A DNA stretch of 64,000 nt from Viridothelium virens (lineage: Eukaryota > Ascomycota > Dothideomycetes > Trypetheliales > Trypetheliaceae). This document shows, piece by piece, positions 12,024-64,000 of the stretch. The position numbers and the translations under genes were made by a program. The stretch covers positions 1 through 64,000 of the forward strand of contig ML991842.1 of NCBI GenBank assembly GCA_010094025.1, given 5' to 3'. Positions within the stretch are counted from its first letter, which is position 1, and the number at the start of each line of letters is the position of its first letter. The notes beneath the pieces were generated by a model. That model saw only the letters and a list, made by a program, of their open reading frames with translations, was not told the DNA's origin and ran no database searches.

Positions 12024-15000
12024 CTAGTCCTGCTTTGAGATGATGTCGTCCGCATCATAAAGGGACTCAATGAAGAATCTCCAGGTGGAAAGACGGTCCC
12101 CGTAGACCAGTTCCGATCTCGGCTCTTCGAGGACGTCGCACCAGCCACGGAAATTTCCAACGGCAATCATCAGGCGCTGTGCTCGCGATAGTTCCGTGTT
12201 CATCTGGTTCTTGAAAGAAGCGAACCCTAAGTCGAGAGGATTCGCCGGATTCCTCTTGACAAAGGAAAGGATCACGATCGGTTTTTCCTTACCCTGCCAT
12301 TTGGCTGTGGTGTCCAATTTCAGGCCGAGCAGGTCAGTCAGGCTACGATCCTGCATCCATTCGCTTACAGCCTTCTTGTGGATTTTGCGACGCTGGCCAG
12401 TGTACGGCGTAACTATGCCAATTTCGTCAACCTTGATCTTTGGCAGTCCTGCTGATGGCTGGAAAGCGAGAAGAGCTTTCACTAATTCTACCACGAAGTC
12501 TGCCTCGGCGTTGTTGCTGCTCGACTGTGTCTGCTCGTACGGCTCCGAATAAGCATCATCCGAGCTAATGTCGACAGCGACGCGATATCGGCCGTTCCAA
12601 GCAGCGCCCATCTGTTCCAAGAACTCTTTGATGGTCGTCTGCAAACCATCATTGTAGTGTGCAGAAGAATGCGTCTCGATTCCGTCGTAATAGAACGTCT
12701 TGGAAATCCAAGTAGCAATGTCCGGATGCATGCGGTACTGTACATCTAGCATGCGATGATGGTACTGGCCACCAGTCGCGGGGTCAAGCGTATACTCGAA
12801 CAAAGACACCTTCTGCATATCCCAGGCCTCGTTGCGCTGCCTTGTCTGAACGACTGGAGGAAGCTGTTGATGGTCACCACCAAAGACGACCATTTCAAGT
12901 TGTTCGATGGACGCCGCAAGGGGTGTTGCTGTGTCTGGTATCGCTGATTGACCAGCCTCGTCCATGACGAGGAGCGCAGGCTTGAAATGATCCATCACTA
13001 CTTCATGACAAGCAGTTGAGCATGTAACAAACACAACCTTGACCTTCGTGTAGAATTTTTCCTCAGAGCATCGAGAGCAATCTTCCGGGATCGCCGCGCT
13101 TGATCCTTCTCCTCCTTGGTGCTTCCTCCACGCTTAAGTCTCTCCACCCGTTCTTTGGCATTTAGGAGACTGGAGACCATCATCTTCTCTTCTGTCTGGG
13201 TTGGCTCATTTTGCCAGTCACTGATCTGCTGGTTGAAGAGCCGATTGTCGGCATATTGTCCCCATTGGAGTTGTCCTGCGTTGGAAGATAGCATTTGCCA
13301 GAAACGATCCTGTAGGTCCTGTTCGTCGCCACCATCTTCTCCGTCGTCTTCTGTGTCAAGCTTTTCTGTTTCGGTGAGTTCTTCTTTGGCGATGGACTTT
13401 CCCGCGATGGTTGGCGCATCGGTGGTCATGCCTGTCGGACCATACGGGTTATGTTGGTCGATATTTATATCATTCGATCCATGGAGGGGTCTGAAATCTG
13501 TTTCGTCCAAGCCTTCGTCAAACTCCTCATCTTCGGTGCCCTTGATCCTTCTAGCTCTCTCGATATCGCGCTCTAAGGTTTTTACACGATCGAGATCACT
13601 GAATGCGCTCCGGAAGCGAGAGACCTTGTACGGAATCGGTTGACCGCGTTTTGCGTAATGATGGTGCAATGTCGCAAGCATATTGTCCGTTGCTTCATTT
13701 GAAGGAGCACAGCAAATGACGGGTCGATTGGTCGACCTGACATAGGCATCTACTATACCCATGAGCGTCTGAGACTTGCCTGTACCCCCAGCGCCCTGAT
13801 TGAAACAGACGCCTGTGTAAGAGGTAACGGCATCCATGGCGCATCGGTGCTGGGTAGGATTGAGCGACCAATTCTGCAGCTCTGCTTGATAGGCATCAAT
13901 AAGCCCAGGGGACGCTATATGCCTCTTCAGGGTATCAGTTCGTGAGATCGTTGGAGGAGCCCTAAGCACGCGACGACGAATATCAATACCTCCCTTGCGC
14001 TCTTTCACGCCCAGCTCCAGCCTTTTAATCGCAGCGAAGCAGCGAGCCGTAGCAGTGGGGTCTCCCACCAAGTTGAACCCGATATTCGCATAGACATGAT
14101 TGGGCTGGGGGTCAAAATCTTTGCCGTGACAGTCTACCATGACATCCCAGCCTCCTTGCTGTCCGTCGACACCGAGAGGATGTTCTGTGATCTTTCCACT
14201 GATCTTCCAGGTCCTCGCGTCGCCGCCATTTATGGTAATTCGGACCTTGGTATCTGCTTCAGGTAGGATCCTGGCCTTGTCGTCATTGAATCTTTCGAAA
14301 CTGACGTATCCGATGAAGTGGTCCGGTTGCTCGGGGTCCTTCTGGAATCTAGCAGAGGCCGTTACGCCATGATCGGTATCAGACTGATTCAACAATTCTC
14401 GCAATGTGTGTTGTTGCTCCCGCTTTAAAGCCAATTTGAGGACTGCAGCGATGGTGCTGGCATTTGGATATTGGCGCAAGCTGCCGAATGAGTCCCATTT
14501 CTCCGGCGCCGGTCTCGACACGCAGACCTGATCCTGAAAATCTGCGGTCCAGCTCGTGACAATCCATCTGGGTGGTTCGACTTCGTCCCATGGGAACTGT
14601 GGATCTGTATGGACATTGCCTTTCGTATCCTCAGTATTTCCGCCAGCAGCCAATGCGTAGTACCACATTGTACCAAAGGTTGCCGTTAGCTCAAAGCAGC
14701 AATTCATGTACTTTCGGAAGATAATCGCATAATCTAGCTTTTCGTCCTTGCTAAATCCCCAGAAGACATATATACGCAGCTTATTGGCATTCAGGAGCTC
14801 GAAGACCAATTGCTCGAACCTCTCAAGGCCGCCATGGTTCGTGCCACGGGTTTGAATGGCTTCCAATTCCGATAATGTGATCCCGGAGAACTTGGGACGG
14901 AAGCCTTTTGCCTTCTTTGCGTCTTTTAATTCAAGACGGACTTCGCAGACTCTTCCAGATGCCATATGCTCTTGAAGGTCCGTATGTCTGGGTGGTAAAT

Positions 15001-15631
15001 GCCATTGATGAAGTTGAGTAATATGTGCGACCGGTAGAATTGGCCTGACTTTCCAGATATTTTCAGACGGATCGAAAAACATGTAGTCCTCCGGATACCG
15101 CAGTTCCATTGAGGGCCTCTTCCGCATGATGCCGTTCAGTGAGTAAGTATTGTTTCTCAGGCACCTTGGGGCGATATGACAAACTATATCCTTCGCATCA
15201 TCCGCTCCCCGACTCATGTGGAGGTTCAACTCCGGATATTGGGAGTGCATGGCCCAAGAGAGTTTTACCATTCCGTCGTGCTTCCTCAAGCCACTACCAA
15301 AGCATTTTGGTTCATCCTGGCCACTCGCGTAGTCCGGGATGGCGATCATCGCGTAATTTTGCACATGCATCCTGTGGTGAGTACCTTTGCTATTTTCGCC
15401 TGTAGTAGTTACTGGGTAGTCTCTTCCGCGGTAGTCGCCATGGATTATGCCGTACTCGGGCATGTCGTATACCCCTCCAGTCTCCGTCAGTGCGTATTCA
15501 CCAGCTCTAGCCCGAAAGCCTTCTATGTCGAAAGACTCTTGCTGGGGTACTCCTGCCATTAGAGTATCTTCCTGAGGAGGCGGTCCAGGCGGAAAAGGTT
15601 GTCTAGAAGAGGATTGATCGTCTTGAGACAT
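12024..15631 (-). CDS. UPF1-like superfamily 1 RNA helicase, frame interrupted
   Basis: A large SF1 helicase related to the UPF1/NFX1-type group (DEAA/DEAG-box ATPases). Residues 1 to about 580 are a fungal-type N-terminal region without a domain I recognise. The core follows: NPTQHRCAMD near 590, Walker A GAGGTGKS near 610, APSNEATDNML (Ia), then an acidic insertion (about 660-800). Motif II is VMDEAGQS, III GGDHQQLPPV, IV QYRMHPDI, then EIGIVTPYTGQ and VI ELSRAQRLMIAVGN. The frame shifts once: up to codon about 857 it is frame one, and VKVVFVTCSTACHEV and all later motifs lie in another frame. The break sits at a run of five A (minus strand; 13056-13060); six A would read through ALRKKFYTK. 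No GT-AG intron bridges it. It ends at TAG 12026-12024, with an RGG tail beyond. Either a sequence error plus read-through, or an early pseudogene. The gene is otherwise intact. Confidence 0.75.
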
Positions 15632-15988
15632 AGAAACTAGATGAACTGCGACCGGCAGCCCTCTAGAAAATCAATTGAATCAATCTGGGGCCGAGAGACC
15701 GGAGTCTGTCAAGCTAGAGAGAGGGGGAGGGAAGGAGGAGGGGAAGGAAAGAGGGGCGAAAGGAGAGGAGAGCTTGCACGCTCCTGAGGGGCGCCAGAGA
15801 GGAAGAGAGAGAAGAACACGGGCAACTCGTACTATTTCTAGTAGCGAGATGTCAGTGGTGGTGGTTGAGGAAGAGAAGGAAAGGTTTCCGAGATGCAAAG
15901 CTGAGGAGCTTATACCAATCCACCGTGCAGGAGTAGGGTTAAGTATTCACCAACGCCCTATTTCGGAATTGGTGGGACAAGGCACCCG
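15632..15988. other. Helicase promoter with polypurine tract
   Basis: Upstream of the helicase ATG. About 60 nt at 15714-15775 are almost pure G/A on the plus strand (so C/T on the coding strand), a common promoter-proximal pyrimidine tract in ascomycetes. No gene. Confidence 0.45.
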
Positions 15989-56363: not shown

Positions 56364-59300
56364 ATGTCCAATCGGCCCCGTCACCGAGACGACTTTGATA
56401 TCGCTATCATCTGTGCTCTGTCGATTGAAGCCGATGCTGTGCTGGGTGTTTTCGACGAATTTTGGGAGGAGGAAGGGGACTCGTACGGGAAAGCAGCGAG
56501 CGACTCGAATACCTACACTACTGGACGTATCGGCAAACACAACGTTGTCCTTGCACACATGCCAGGTATGGGGAAGAACGCATCGGCCAGCGTGGCTGCG
56601 AATTTCTGTTCCAGTTTCAACTGCATCAGGCTTGGTCTGGTGGTAGGCATCTGTGGAGGAGTGCCTGCTGATATAACAAAGGGCGAGGAGATGCTTCTCG
56701 GCGACGTCGTTATCAGCACTGGAGTAGTGCAGTTTGATTTTGGACGGCAGTACTCGGATAAGGTGATCAGAAAGGATACGCTTGAAGATGGTTTAGGCCG
56801 GCAGAACCTGGAAATCCGAGGCTTCTTACAGAAAATGGGAGGTCTGCATGACAGAAAGCAGCTGAAGGACAACACTTTTTTCCAACTGAGTGAGCTCTGC
56901 AGGAAAGACGACTTCCACACGTGGGGATACCCCGGCGCGAGCAATGACATCCTTTATCCGTCGACATACCGTCACATGCACCAACAATCAGAAGCATGCG
57001 AAATCTGCGGGAGTAATAGCTCGTGCGAGGCTGCGCGCGAGTCAAGCTGTGAAGAGCTGAGTTGCGATACCAGGAAGCAGATTCCCCGGTCAGGGCTGCA
57101 GAAAATTGAGGAACAAGGTCTTACAACAGAGACGGGAATCGTGCAGAGACCTGAAATACATTTTGGGAAGATTGGATCTGGAGACTTAGTGATAAAGTCG
57201 GAGAATCATCGTGACGACATTGCGAAGAAGGAGAAGGTGATTGCGTTTGAGATGGAGGGAGCCGGAGTGTGGGACCATTTCCCTACCGTGGTCATTAAAG
57301 GTGTGTGCGATTACGCAGACAGTCATAAGAACAAGAAGTGGCAAAAATATGCTGCGGCTACAGCAGCTGCATGTATGAAGGCATTTTTGAAGGTGTGGAG
57401 AGGCATGGACAAGCCGTTGCGCCCTTCGGCATCTTTGGATCAAAGTTCCTCCTCAAGCTTCAAGACGACCCTCGGGACACGGTACCCCGAAGGTATTACA
57501 CTTCGTCAAGATATATTGAAAATGTGCGGTTGCTGATGATCTAGTAGGGAAGCATCCACTGGACGGGCTTCCGTCCTCTTTGAATGATGGAGAGCCGGCT
57601 TTGAAACGCAGGAAGACCGATTCGCACCCTGATCATCAAGTAGATTTCGACGCTCTCCGACATACCTCCGAAGCTCGCCGAAAGCTTAATCAATTCGAGC
57701 CGATTGCTCTTAGTACAGATCAACGAAGAATCTATCTGAACTCCTTAAAATTCCATCAGATCGAGTCCCGTCATGCGAACATCAAGCCCGCACACACAAA
57801 AACCTGCAAGTGGTTGCTGAAAAAATCCGAATACCAGGACTGGCTTGATGCATGTAAAATCAAAGAGCACAACGGAATATTTTGGATCAAGGGAAAGCCT
57901 GCTGCCGGAAAGTCTACTATTATGAAATTTGCATATTCGAATTCTAAGAGGAATATGAAGAATGCTATCGTTGTTTCCTTCTATTTCAACGCAAGGGGTG
58001 AGGACCTAGAGAGGAACGTCGAGGGCATGTATCGGTCCTTGCTATTTCAGCTGCTCAGCGAAGCTCAAGAGCTTCAACATGTGTTTGACATACTTGGGCC
58101 GGACGAAACCGATGAATACGAGTCCGTCAAATGGAGTATCGAAAAATTGAGAGGCTTCTTTGAACGCGCCGTCGAGAATCTCAAGCAGCGTCATCTGGTT
58201 TGTTTTATCGATGGCTTGGACGAATGCAACGAGGGGGAGGTGAGAGACATGGTGGAATTCTTCGAACGACTCGCACAAGTTTCAGTTATGTCCGGAACTC
58301 AATTACACGTCTGTTTTTCAAGCCGCCACTATCCGTACATTACTATTGAGAAAGGGGTCGAGCTTACCCTAGAAGGTCAGGAAGGCCACCTACAGGATAT
58401 AATTAATTACGTACAGAGCGAACTTAGAGCTGGCCAGAGCAAAGTAGTCCGGCAAATTAAGGATGAGATACCTCAGAGAGCTTGCGGTATATTCCTTTGG
58501 GCTGTCTTAGTGGTAAAGATGCTCCAAAAAGAGTTTGACCGCGGCAAAGTTTACGCACTGCAGAAGCGTTTCAACCAGATCCCAACCGAGTTATTTGAGC
58601 TCTTTAATGATATTTTAACACGAGATGGTGAGCAGGTTGACGACCTAATTCTATGCCTTCAATGGATATTACTCACAAAGCGGCCTTTGAAACGCGAAGA
58701 GCTTTACTTTGGCCTTCTCTCCGGACTAGCTACCGAAGCACTGGCTCCATGGGATCCAAAAGAAGTTACTGAGCAAGATATGGAAAGATTCATACTACAT
58801 TCTTCCAAGGGACTTGCTGAGGTGACAAAGTCAAAGGCTCAGTCTGTCCAGTTTATTCACGAATCGGTGCGAGATTTTCTCAAAGAGGGAAGACTCGAGC
58901 TTCTTAGTGGTGAAGCATTTCTTAAGCAAGGCCACGAGCGACTAAAGCAATGCTGCCAAACATACCTGAGAGTTAATGCTTCGGAATATTTGCCGCTTAC
59001 TACCAACCTACCGGCTGCAAACTCTGAAGCAGCTGCAGATCTTAGGCGGCGAGCAAATGAGAGGTTACCGCTTCTTGAGTACGCTGTGCGCAATATACTT
59101 CATCATTCCAATGCAGCAAGCAGAGACGGCATCTGTCAAGACAGTTTCGTTCAAGGCTTTACTGTCCAAGACTGGGTCCTCCTCGATAACCTTTTTGAGA
59201 GATTTCAAGTGCGTCGACACACGCCAGAAGTAAGTCTACTATACATCCTCGTAGAGAAGAATTTGCCAGACCTTATCGCGATTGAACTTCAACGGGTTCA

Positions 59301-60285
59301 ACACATGGATATTCCAGGGGAACGCTATGAATTCCCACTATGTGTCGGAGTGGCAAAAAAAAACGAAGAAGCTGTCAAAGCTCTAATAACTCCTAATGTT
59401 AGCGTCTGCTCAAACGGAGATCGTCTGCCGGATCTGTGTCTCTCTCCTGAAACAGTTCTATGGCCCTTGAACGATGCGTACCGTTCTTGGAGTAAGCGAA
59501 GCCAGACACCGCTTTTCTGGGCTGCGTCCGGTGGGCATGAGGCAGTGGTCAAGCTGCTGGTCGCGTCAGAAAAGGTTGACGTTGACTTGAAGGACAATAA
59601 CNNNNNNNNNNNNNNNNNNNNNNNNNNNNNNNNNNNNNNNNNNNNNNNNNNNNNNNNNNNNNNNNNNNNNNNNNNNNNNNNNNNNNNNNNNNNNNNNNNN
59701 NNNNNNNNNNNNNNNNNNNNNNNNNNNNNNNNNNNNNNNNNNNNNNNNNNNNNNNNNNNNNNNNNNNNNNNNNNNNNNNNNNNNNNNNNNNNNNNNNNNN
59801 NNNNNNNNNNNNNNNNNNNNNNNNNNNNNNNNNNNNNNNNNNNNNNNNNNNNNNNNNNNNNNNNNNNNNNNNNNNNNNNNNNNNNNAAGGACAATAACGG
59901 CCGCACACCGCTATTATAGGCTGCGCAATATAGGCATGAGGCGGTGGTTGAGCTGTTGGTCGCGTTAAAAAAGGTTAATGTTAACTTAAAGGATAATAAC
60001 AGCCAGATACCGCTATTATAGGCTGCGCAATATGGGCATAAGGCGGTGGTTAAGCTGCTGGTCGCGTCTGAAAAGATTAACATCAACTTAAAGGATAATT
60101 ACAGCCGGACACCGCTATTATCGGCTGCGACACATGGGCATGAGGCGGTGGTCAAGCTACTACTCACAACAGGAAAGGTTGAGGTTGACTTGAAGGATAA
60201 TTACAGCCGGAGAGTGCTATCGGACGCTGCGTTCTGCGGTCATGAGGCGGTAGTCAAACTACTTAAAGAATATATCGCTATGTAG
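56364..60285 (+). CDS. NLR-like protein: PNP_UDP - NACHT - ankyrin repeats
   Basis: Fungal NOD-like receptor. Exon 1 is 56364-57492; a 52-nt intron (57493-57544, with a GCTGATGA branch-like site) joins it in frame to exon 2. Residues 1 to about 360 are a nucleoside-phosphorylase-like domain: DFDIAIICALSIEADAVLG, VGICGGVP, FEMEGAGVWDHFPTVVIKGV and YAAATAAACMKAFL. A linker KRRKTD precedes NACHT with DWLDACKIKEHNGIFWIKG, Walker A GKPAAGKST (near 490) and Walker B LVCFIDGLDE (near 592), then a winged-helix-like part and TPLFWAASGGHEAVVKLL ankyrin units of 34 residues. A 285-nt N-gap breaks the array; beyond it the frame continues but two units carry TAG where the intact first unit has Trp. As drawn, the frame stops at 59919 unless the two TAG codons are errors; the original end is 60285. 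Related PNP domains in bacterial immune proteins (Detocs) hydrolyse ATP; such activity here is inference. Confidence 0.85.
59500..60285 (+). repeat. Ankyrin repeat array, 102-nt units
   Basis: Units start at 59500, then after the gap at 59899, 60001, 60103 and 60205 (last one partial). Each encodes 34 residues of the form TPLxxAAxxGHEAVVKLL, ending DLKDNN or NLKDNY. Unit 1 and the units at 59899 and 60001 differ mostly by transitions (C-to-T or G-to-A). The repeat similarity probably caused the assembly gap. Confidence 0.85.
59602..59886. other. Assembly gap (N)
   Basis: 285 undetermined bases beginning exactly at the end of a repeat unit. If the units were regular, the distance from 59602 to 59898 would be a multiple of 102; it is 297, so the gap length is either estimated or the hidden units are irregular. 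Confidence 0.98.
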
Positions 60286-61618
60286 ATAGTGTATTTATTA
60301 AGTCTTAGCTCTACCATCCACCGTCCTACCCATCTCCTTATTGTATTACGTTTCTTGTATATCCTTCGAATACGAGCTTACCTGGGTGTACTTCTGCTCT
60401 GACGATTGAATCTCCAATGACTAAGCTGACAGATCTTGATTTGTCCCTATCTCAGGAAATCAGAAAATATGTCGACGACCTTCGAGAGTGTACTCGCTGA
60501 GTCATTAGTATAATCCACACAACTACCTACTTAATCTTCCAAAAACTCAGACCCTCAAGTTTTGGTGCAAATACTTCACTCTTTCATGCCGTCCCATTAC
60601 CTCAGAACCTCAGGCGCTAGATGAGATGAGACTAGGCCTGCAAGGGTTTGGAGATTACTAACTATCAACCCTTGTTGACTAAGCCTCTTATTATTTAACG
60701 TCTAAGTTCCTTTGGGTTTATTTTACATCAAAAACCACTTTACACGCCTTATTTTTTATCCTTTAAGCCTTTAAAAAGTATTAAAGATAACAAATTTATA
60801 TAAAAAATACCCATATAACATGTAAAATAACATTCTTATCTTTAACTACTAAATTAATAAATAGATTTTTGTTAAGGTGAATTTTTATAAATAAAAAGGG
60901 TGAAGTTCGCAATATTGAATATAATTTAGAGACAGAGGCAGCAGGTAAATAGTTAGGCAGGCAGGTAGACAGGCCTCAGAGGCAGACCCCAAAGGCACTC
61001 AGACGGCAGAGCCAGAAAGCCAAAGGGTTAACGCTATATTGCGCTAGTAAAGCGCCAATTGAACGTAGCGCCACTACCGCGCACCATGGCTGAGATAACC
61101 GTCCCACCTCTTTACCACAACTCCAAATCAGAGTGCAATGCGGAGGTGCATTCAACCCAACACGACCTTTCTCACGAACTACATGCCATTTTGAGATTCC
61201 CCAAAATTTTTTTTGCCGAAATTGCGGAATTGCGAGAATTTTTGGAGAGGGAGTCACAGTGGGGTTCTAGAGTACGTCACAGGACAGAAGGCTAGCACTC
61301 TTTACCGTCGCCAACCCGTCCCGTTCCTAATCATACGTTGCCCTGGCATACAAAATGTAGAGAACGTGAATCTTCACTACCTGATCAAGCTGAACCAATG
61401 TGTATACCAGACACTTTATGCAAACCTCACGCGTGGAAAATGTCATTTTGGTATCACTATGCTAGTATCTTTGAACTCCATCATGCCCTGCCCATTGCTC
61501 TGTTTCCGAGAGCCCATGCCATGTCCCTCAATTATGCAGAGCGCCGCCATATGTAAAGAAAGCGGGAGAATAAGATTGGCTAGAGGATGCTCTTTCGATG
61601 TATACTGTCACGCGCCAA
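60286..61618. other. AT-rich island and unassigned DNA after NLR
   Basis: Strongly AT-rich between about 60680 and 60920, with many TpA steps and no open frame. Just after it (60930-60990) are short G/C/A direct repeats built on ggcagg and gacagg. A RIP-decayed transposon relic is possible but no element family could be recognised. Then mixed DNA with short frames up to the Ulp2 stop. Confidence 0.5.
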
Positions 61619-64000
61619 TTACCCGACGGGGCTTTCGAGGATGACCTCAACCTCATCCTCCTCGCTTCCCCCATCAGCTCCGCGATCATTTTTGTGCCCG
61701 CCACCTTGCCCTTCTTCCTCTTCACCCTCCTGTGTCACTTCCTGTGTCTCCTCCAGTGTTTCAGCCTGCGTGGCCTCCTGCATCTTACTCCGCTGCTTCC
61801 TCTTTGCCTTGAAACGGTCTTCATCCTCCGCCGCTTCTCTAAGCTGCGTGATTATATCGAGTCCTTGACGATAGCGGCCTGAGGACTCTCCATCTTCTTG
61901 CGCGCGGGGGAGGTTAGAATCGAGCCTCTTCCGCGAGGTAATTGCGGCACCCGCTCGCTTGTGGTCGGTATCCTCTCGCCGCTGTGGCGGTGATACCTGC
62001 TTGGGTACTGCCTGCTCGGAAACAAAGACCACGGAATCCTCGAGCGACTCTGGTTGCTGCGACTCATGCAATAGGCACTGTGATTCGGGTCTTATGACAG
62101 ACTTCGAACCCTGTCTGGAAGATGCATTCTTGGATAACAGTGGTGCAGCATCTGGAAGTTCAGGCGCCTTTACCGGAGATCCGCTACCTCGAGTCGGCTG
62201 GGACACCGATGATTCCGCTGTCTTTGAGGGCGATACGCTCCTGCGGACTGGTACCGGAGGGCTCTCATCGGATATTTCGTCCTTTAGCTTCTGATCAGAT
62301 GGTACAGAGACGATTGAGGTTTTGGGTGGGCTTTGATGTTGCAATTGTGGCCGTGTTTCAACAGTATTTTGCTGCCCACCTTCTCTAGTCTTTCCCTTCT
62401 GCGCGCCTTGTATTTTGACGTTCTTTAATTTACCTCTGGCCTCCAATTTCTGATCCCTGGCGTTCTTTTGTTCCTTATACAAATTTTGCAACAACTTCTT
62501 GATATTCGTTCTCATGATGCCAGGGTTGAGCTCTGGAAAATCGATATGTTGTCTGCTCACGATCTTCCTAACGAAGTCCTGAGGCTCTTCCAGGAACCGA
62601 CTAACGTAGCCGAGTAGGTAGAGACCGCAATCACAGTAGTTGTCCTGAGTTGGAATATGCTTGGCGTTGATTCCCTGGATGTCTTTAGAACTAATATCCA
62701 TGCTCCTCCTGCTTTTGCCTTCTGCAATCAAATACTCTTTGAGAAGTTTCCTTGTGGGAAAACGGTCAACGTCAATCGAGTCTAGGACGATGATCGTAGG
62801 CTCGTGGGCATTGGACTTTCGCACGAGCCCAGACTTCCTTCTCGACTTCTTCTCAGAAGAAGCGCTGCTACCGTGCTGGGGCTTTTCCTCAGCTCGAGCT
62901 TCGACCTTGCTGAACGAACTGCTATCGCCTTCTTCTGTCAAGTGTACGTGACCGGCTAAAGCCTCCTCAGACTCTTGCGCAAGCTGAGTTGCTGCTGCCT
63001 TATCGTCAAAGTTGGTGTACTGTCTACCCACTTTGTCAGATGGACTTCTCGTAGAAAGCTTATTCATGTCAGCCTCCAAACTAGGAACGACGTTTGATGA
63101 TAGCCCGTCAGCAATGTTTGCGTTCTTTGAAGACTGGGACGCAGGCTCCTGGGCTTCTTGGGCCGCATCGAGGTGCTTTTCCAACGGTCCGAGGATTGTA
63201 TTGTCCGAATTCCTTTCCTTGGCCTCTTCGGAATCTGTGCGGACCAGTTTTCTCCCCAGGTTCGGCAAGTTGCAGATAATGGCAACATACCAGTGTAAAT
63301 CTTCGTTGATTGGAACGATAATGTAGTCAAAGTCAAAAATGTCAACTTTTGAAGTCCAGCGCTGCACTGCCTTGTAGTTGAAACCTTTGGTGCCCTTGTC
63401 TGATGTCGAAAGCGCACTGAAGAAGAAGTTACTGAAAAAGTAGACTTTTGGCTTCTCAGAGACCTGCTTCGCCTGGAAGGCTTCTTCGCAGTATCGGAGG
63501 TAAAAAGCTATGAGGTTATCATTCAAAAATTCTCCTTCATCAAGGCGTTTGAGGTCAAGGAAATCAACAGTGGACCTTTTCGCTCCTATCTCTGGATAGA
63601 TGACGGACTGGTCCCATACTTCACCAAGACCGTACTTCCTCGAAAATCTTTCTGATTCGGAGATTTCATCGAGTGAGTCAAGCGTGCTGTATTTTCCAGG
63701 AGCGGTTTGACGTGTAGAGTTACGAAGGCCTTCTCGCCGTTCCCGACCCTGGAATGGAATGGCTCTCTGGGAATCCAAGCTATCATTAACAATCCTCGGT
63801 TGCGTAGAAGACCTTCGCGCAGAGTCACGGTTCGTTAGCTCATCGTGTTCTTCATATTTGATGTCTTGCTGTAGATTTTCGGTGATCCGCCTTTTTTTAG
63901 GAGCCTGCTCCGAGAGCACCTCTTGTCGATGATCTGCTTGTCGATGGTCTCCTTGTTTGGAACTTGGACCTCGAGATGGGGTATAAATTTCACTCTTATC
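61619..64000 (-). CDS. Ulp2-like SUMO protease (C48), 5' end outside window
   Basis: Cysteine protease that removes SUMO chains from nuclear proteins. The minus-strand frame is open to the right edge (64000), so the N-terminus lies outside; the visible part is 793 residues and reads through a GTG at 63919 that is not the true start. Catalytic domain: WDQSVIYPEIGAKRSTVDFLDLKRL, FLNDNLIAFYLRYC, IFDFDYIIVPINEDLHWYV (catalytic His), then a disordered insertion of about 130 residues, IIVLDSID (Asp) and PTQDNYCDCGLYLLGY (Gln and Cys). The insertion between the His and Asp and the long acidic/polar C-terminal tail fit the Ulp2/SENP6-7 branch rather than Ulp1. Tail contains Ser/Pro blocks and an EEEEEG run. 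Confidence 0.88.
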   Translation of the reverse strand, partial: DKSEIYTPSRGPSSKQGDHRQADHRQEVLSEQAPKKRRITENLQQDIKYEEHDELTNRDSARRSSTQPRIVNDSLDSQRAIPFQGRERREGLRNSTRQTAPGKYSTLDSLDEISESERFSRKYGLGEVWDQSVIYPEIGAKRSTVDFLDLKRLDEGEFLNDNLIAFYLRYCEEAFQAKQVSEKPKVYFFSNFFFSALSTSDKGTKGFNYKAVQRWTSKVDIFDFDYIIVPINEDLHWYVAIICNLPNLGRKLVRTDSEEAKERNSDNTILGPLEKHLDAAQEAQEPASQSSKNANIADGLSSNVVPSLEADMNKLSTRSPSDKVGRQYTNFDDKAAATQLAQESEEALAGHVHLTEEGDSSSFSKVEARAEEKPQHGSSASSEKKSRRKSGLVRKSNAHEPTIIVLDSIDVDRFPTRKLLKEYLIAEGKSRRSMDISSKDIQGINAKHIPTQDNYCDCGLYLLGYVSRFLEEPQDFVRKIVSRQHIDFPELNPGIMRTNIKKLLQNLYKEQKNARDQKLEARGKLKNVKIQGAQKGKTREGGQQNTVETRPQLQHQSPPKTSIVSVPSDQKLKDEISDESPPVPVRRSVSPSKTAESSVSQPTRGSGSPVKAPELPDAAPLLSKNASSRQGSKSVIRPESQCLLHESQQPESLEDSVVFVSEQAVPKQVSPPQRREDTDHKRAGAAITSRKRLDSNLPRAQEDGESSGRYRQGLDIITQLREAAEDEDRFKAKRKQRSKMQEATQAETLEETQEVTQEGEEEEGQGGGHKNDRGADGGSEEDEVEVILESPVG

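Follow-up and report, generated by a model that had tools for sequence, protein, structure and literature searches.

A possible RIP-like mutation footprint in two stop-bearing ankyrin units of an NLR-like gene from Viridothelium virens

Repeat arrays of fungal NLR genes and RIP

The closest described systems are fungal NLR genes with C-terminal repeats. In Podospora anserina, the NWD/HNWD genes (het-d, het-e, NWDp-1 and NWDp-2) combine a NACHT gene with a C-terminal repeat array, as does the gene described below, and they likewise carry stops in the repeats. RIP (repeat-induced point mutation) has been proposed as a mutation source in the WD repeats of Podospora NLRs (PMC1805685). One stop lies in the 7th WD unit of NWDp-1 (PMC1805685), and het-d of strain Wa87+ has two stops in the sixth repeat, which are backed by read mapping (PMC12222747, 2025). 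Two RIP-inactivated NWD pseudogenes were described by Paoletti et al. (2007, PMC1805685), with WD repeats largely free of a RIP signature. The same authors found eight of nine silent CpA mutated in WD repeats, called that sample too small, and left undecided whether RIP acts on NLR repeats constantly or only at rare gene duplications (PMC1805685). Dyrka et al. (2014) called the conserved Podospora repeats prone to RIP (PMC4986451), and a 2025 survey of Sordariales reported only a weak negative correlation between NLR number and RIP-affected area (PMC12258605). Among the matches listed in a full-text literature search, no report of a RIP footprint inside an NLR ankyrin array was found.

Gene architecture and the ankyrin array

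The window analysed here is one stretch of 64,000 nucleotides (64 kb; contig ML991842.1, positions 1 to 64,000, assembly GCA_010094025.1). It contains one gene-like unit on the + strand (56364-60285) with PNP_UDP, NACHT-like (NPHP3_N) and ankyrin regions (Table 1). The PNP_UDP_1 match in exon 1 (Pfam PF01048, E=4.6e-14) reaches 52.8 bits versus a curated cut-off of 25.1, exon 2 matches NPHP3_N (Pfam PF24883, E=2e-32), and the C-terminal ankyrin repeats are matched by the Pfam models Ank, Ank_2 and Ank_4 over 60022-60282 and by Ank over U1. The Pfam search of the gene reported no model named NACHT at E up to 0.01; the NPHP3_N model (PF24883) is presumably the one that covers NACHT-type domains of fungal NLRs. 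Judged by its domains, the gene looks like a fungal NLR-like gene of PNP_UDP / NACHT / ANK architecture, which is one of the fungal NLR architectures (PMC4986451); its short predicted intron also points to a fungal gene. A preliminary description of this DNA had assigned it to the HET/NWD type, an assignment that fails at both ends of the protein, as the N-terminus is PNP_UDP_1 and the repeats are ankyrin.

Table 1. Features of the NLR-like gene and its ankyrin array
Feature	Position	Strand	Basis
Exon 1, PNP_UDP_1 (phosphorylase superfamily) N-terminal domain	56364..57492	+	frame open from ATG
Predicted 52-nt GT-AG intron (GTATTA ... CTGAT ... CTAG), links both frames	57493..57544	+	read from sequence
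Open part of exon 2 leading up to the array, with NACHT-like P-loop NTPase and linker	57545..59499	+	open frame
Open ankyrin unit U1 of 34 aa (102 nt); residue 7 is Trp	59500..59601	+	Pfam Ank PF00023, E=6.4e-07
285 N between U1 and U2 of the array	59602..59886	no strand	sequence
Ankyrin unit U2, TAG at 59917-59919	59899..60000	+	sequence
Ankyrin unit U3, TAG at 60019-60021	60001..60102	+	sequence
Open ankyrin unit U4; the Trp column has a Ser codon	60103..60204	+	sequence; Pfam Ank, Ank_2, Ank_4
Last unit U5, diverged and shortened; terminal TAG 60283-60285	60205..60285	+	sequence

Within the 64-kb window, blastn (E up to 0.01) and tblastn (E up to 1) revealed no further copy of either the gene or its array, and the matches obtained were those of gene and array to themselves or to each other's ankyrin parts. 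The exon-2 protein gave 23 pattern matches against prokaryote contigs and the protein of 60022-60282 (the rest of U3 to U5) gave 8 against viral contigs, with none confirmed in either search; both are uninformative on fungi. Elsewhere in the window, two overlapping long frames occupy 12024-15670 on the - strand. The frame at 12998-15670 contains AAA_11/AAA_30 domains, and the one at 12024-13133 looks by eye like the remainder of a helicase; an intron or a frameshift is therefore likely close to where the two overlap. A further long frame on the - strand (61619-64000) includes, by eye, a stretch similar to a SUMO protease of the Ulp1 type.

The post-gap part of the array has a period of 102 (Tandem Repeats Finder), U1 to U4 align without gaps, and U2 to U5 run without a frameshift. 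The array is incomplete because 285 N separate U1 from U2, a run that was absent from the preliminary description of the array and that we assume to be an assembly gap, although letters may instead have been withheld there. The 12-mer AAGGACAATAAC occurs at the end of the left flank (59590-59601) and again at the start of the right flank (59887-59898). As written, the two copies are 297 bases apart, nine fewer than three whole units would give, and the run therefore does not fix how many units are missing. With AAGGACAATAAC on both flanks, it is also possible that two contigs were broken off at a repeat unit or overlap within one. The figure of 285 N may not be real, and repeat counts taken from this sequence are unsafe given the N run.

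The readable units are not near-identical, as had been supposed, since their pairwise DNA identity is 76.5-84.3% over 102 bases (compared by position, no gaps). U2, U3 and U4 differ pairwise at 16-24 of 102 bases, and even the closest pair, U2 and U3, differs at 11 of 34 residues by hand count, with units in the N run falling outside this comparison. Residues 10-11 of the unit read SG, QY, QY, TH and FC in U1 to U5 (codons at 59527-59532, 59926-59931, 60028-60033, 60130-60135 and 60232-60237, respectively). Several bases differ at these two positions, transversions among them, which makes them a candidate hypervariable contact pair, separate from the RIP-like changes described below. Sites that vary and are under positive selection in the ANK repeats of Podospora lie, with one exception, on the concave binding face (PMC4986451), and by analogy positions 10-11 may sit on that face here too.

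Stop codons, mutation context and composition

The preliminary description was right that a Trp codon at unit bases 19-21 of the first unit (59500-59601) is replaced by TAG at the same place in the units at 59899 and 60001. The frame of these stops is set by the ankyrin sequence itself (TPLL*AA, IPLL*AA), whatever the length of the N run. In the sequence as given, translation would halt at 59917 or earlier in the N run, and the allele would yield either no receptor or one whose sensor is truncated. In the stop column, U2 and U3 thus share TAG, U1 has Trp and U4 has Ser (TCG). The Ser codon of U4 makes the codon preceding the stop uncertain; U4 equals U2 and U3 in both codons just before the stop column, and it is possible from this alignment that the TAG was made by a transversion. 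Three neighbouring replacements had also been listed as signs of decay and were recovered in part. TTGAC is changed in both stop units (to TTAAC or TTAAT), but U3 has TCAAC in place of U1's second TTGAC. GACAAT is indeed replaced by GATAAT, but also in the stop-free U4, and hence is no marker of decayed units. GAG to AAG at the HE position is present in U3, but in U3 only.

We polarised the changes with U1 and U4 as outgroups to U2 and U3. Five of the 102 unit columns (5, 20, 28, 31 and 100) were set aside before counting because their ancestral state is ambiguous, U5 was omitted from the change counts as short and diverged, and the control events of U1 and U4 omit columns where U2 and U3 also differ. 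On the U2/U3 lineage, the 19 polarised changes comprise 16 transitions (13 GC>AT and 3 AT>GC) and 3 transversions. GC>AT changes fall at CpA/TpG in 8 of 13 cases, compared with 17 of 54 C/G sites of that kind (P=0.011), and in 9 of 14 cases when the stop column is included as a G>A change (P=0.0037). Comparisons by single reference units share changes and are not independent, and they gave similar fractions: 8/12 from U1 to U2 (P=0.006), 8/11 from U1 to U3 (P=0.002), 7/10 from U4 to U2 (P=0.006) and 7/11 from U4 to U3 (P=0.013). The two U1 comparisons bear out the claim that many C>T and G>A differences lie at CpA/TpG. Between the stop units themselves, the fractions were 4/7 from U2 to U3 (P=0.064) and 4/6 from U3 to U2 (P=0.035). 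In the control, CpA/TpG bias was absent between U1 and U4 (3/6, P=0.28, from U1 to U4; 0/3, P=1, from U4 to U1), and two of the five GC>AT changes on the U1/U4 lineage lie at TpG, both in U4.

The statement that almost all changes are C-to-T or G-to-A was an overstatement, as the raw counts are 12/23 from U1 to U2 and 11/21 from U1 to U3, and the polarised count is 13/19. The GC>AT share of the U2/U3 lineage (13/19) does not differ significantly from that of the U1/U4 lineage (5/13; Fisher P=0.15). Within this one gene and its few sites (13-14), the RIP-like mutation context appears to exceed chance modestly.

Conventional RIP thresholds are a TpA/ApT ratio (PI) above 1.1 together with a (CpA+TpG)/(ApC+GpT) ratio (SI) below 0.75. 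U2-U5 fail this pair, with a PI of 1.19 but an SI of 1.09 over 399 bases. That PI is reached by 1.6% of the windows of this size and the SI is ordinary, with 15.8% of windows as low; among the 3147 windows of this length in the 64 kb, not one combines PI>1.1 and SI<0.75. A composite index at least equal to that of U2-U5 occurs in 3.3% of the 3147 windows of 399 bases, and one at least equal to that of U2 and U3 together in 10.6% of 3165 windows of 204 bases. A comparison of the RIP indices of the units with those of the NACHT domain had been proposed as a check. Here the array is not set apart and open NACHT-exon stretches are higher, with the open exon stretch 57545-59499 topping the array on the composite index (0.35 versus 0.10 at 399 bases). 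RIP indices over the array were accordingly rejected as proof of RIP, because the array is not set apart in the 64 kb. If RIP acted here at all, it was light. Just 3' of the gene, the stretch 60640-60960 has 27% GC and is mildly RIP-like (PI 1.33, SI 0.80). A repeat search of 60280-61650 gave no transposon-like ends, only a 14-nt direct pair and a 19-nt imperfect hairpin (60781-60845).

Origin of the shared stop and comparison with known systems

The best explanation, to which we give a probability of about 0.5, is an NLR-like array with light RIP or RIP-like C-to-T mutation in the lineage of U2 and U3. The RIP interpretation offered earlier is thereby kept where it concerns the CpA/TpG and GC>AT bias on the stop-unit lineage, a bias missing between U1 and U4, as RIP would predict, and is weakened by the composition indices and by the 13-14 sites available. 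Mutation would have struck one unit of the array and produced a stop codon, the damaged unit would then have been copied via unequal exchange or gene conversion, and the units at the edge would have diverged in other ways. In Neurospora, a perfect homology of only 155 bp can suffice for RIP of linked repeats, and interspersed homology is tolerated (PMC4858203). The present unit identity of 76-84% straddles the 80% threshold quoted in PMC1805685. Among the scored CpA/TpG sites, 2 of 17 in U1 and 0 of 16 in U4 give a stop if changed, and because two such U1 sites yield stops, a stop is an expected outcome of CpA/TpG mutation. With U1's base counted as the earlier state of the stop column, each of U2 and U3 shows 7 changes of CpA/TpG type out of 17 targets, and the two units have 5 of these in common, including the stop (P=0.052 for independent hits). 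The two units also share QY at unit positions 10-11. Because U2 and U3 share the stop and four other CpA/TpG changes, the stop was probably copied along with its unit, and one stop-making change followed by copying of the unit is the simplest reading of the alignment; repeated independent hits at the same sites of U2 and U3 are possible. The preliminary description had further proposed that the array would lose function unless recombination renews it; if anything, the sharing of the stop with other derived sites suggests that unit copying spread the damage, and a stop can travel along with a unit that recombination copies.

Ordinary decay is a tentative, less probable alternative, in which the array or its end became dispensable, the changes and one stop arose from the usual GC>AT bias, and a unit duplication doubled the stop, with no sensing of repeats. 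Relaxed constraint would allow the 9 of 13 GC>AT changes on the U2/U3 lineage that alter the protein (hand count), the composition indices are unremarkable, and AT-richer sequence (37% GC, 60286-61000) directly adjoins the gene on its 3' side. However, a CpA/TpG context bias (P=0.004-0.011) is unexpected from plain mutational bias, and CpG deamination fits poorly, as only two of the 13 GC>AT changes lie at CpG, these being among the five outside CpA/TpG. An assembly error is improbable. It would make the units beside the N run chimeric or derived from another locus, and the stops foreign to the gene; the 285 N within the array, flanked on either side by AAGGACAATAAC, fit such an error, as does a study of Podospora NLRs in which short-read assemblies lost repeats of the arrays or gained false ones (PMC12222747). 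However, the differences among U2, U3 and U4 (16-24 of 102 bases) exceed what read errors would produce, and two units with one stop each, followed by an open frame to the terminal stop, form a coherent structure.

We consider it very improbable that the stops are tolerated, with a short receptor ending near the N run still working, or avoided through splicing that removes the TAGs. In favour, U4 and U5 are still open and, by eye, TATTATAG at the stop is similar to a 3' splice site. However, a scan restricted to donors between 59887 and 60021 gave 32 GT-AG candidates of about 40-131 nt that span a TAG, and all of them lack both a GTANG donor and, within the range searched, a CTRAY branch site; for introns of this set, splicing-out of the stops was rejected.

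Beyond light RIP or RIP-like mutation of the U2/U3 lineage, a wider model can be drawn, in which the repeat unit is a RIP target, exchange spreads the stop, and concerted evolution amplifies damage to the sensor rather than purging it, acting as a natural on/off switch of ankyrin NLR alleles. We regard this model as unlikely; if it were true, stop-bearing and open alleles would alternate between strains. 

Compared with the Podospora NWD/HNWD genes, whose repeats are of the WD40 type, 126 bp long and about 85% identical at the protein level, the present gene differs in the kind, length and similarity of its units. In NWDp-1 and NWDp-2, RIP is reported as heavy in the NACHT region and not at that level in the WD repeats, which is the reverse of the present gene (PMC1805685). 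Closer in architecture are the PNP_UDP / NACHT / ANK NLRs Pa_2_8180, Pa_3_8560 and Chaetomium globosum gi116208038, which are described with the same three parts and with ankyrin units of 33-34 aa, as here (PMC4986451). These genes were chosen for highly conserved repeats, with 7 to >16 units in Pa_2_8180 and Pa_3_8560 and 21 in C. globosum (PMC4986451), whereas the present array has few readable units, which are more diverged, and two of them carry stops. The process considered here has already been proposed for such genes, and the present gene may add an ankyrin case with RIP-like context. An ankyrin array with a CpA/TpG footprint in some units only is, once arrays are complete, a natural test of whether RIP on NLR repeats is constant or confined to the time of duplication.
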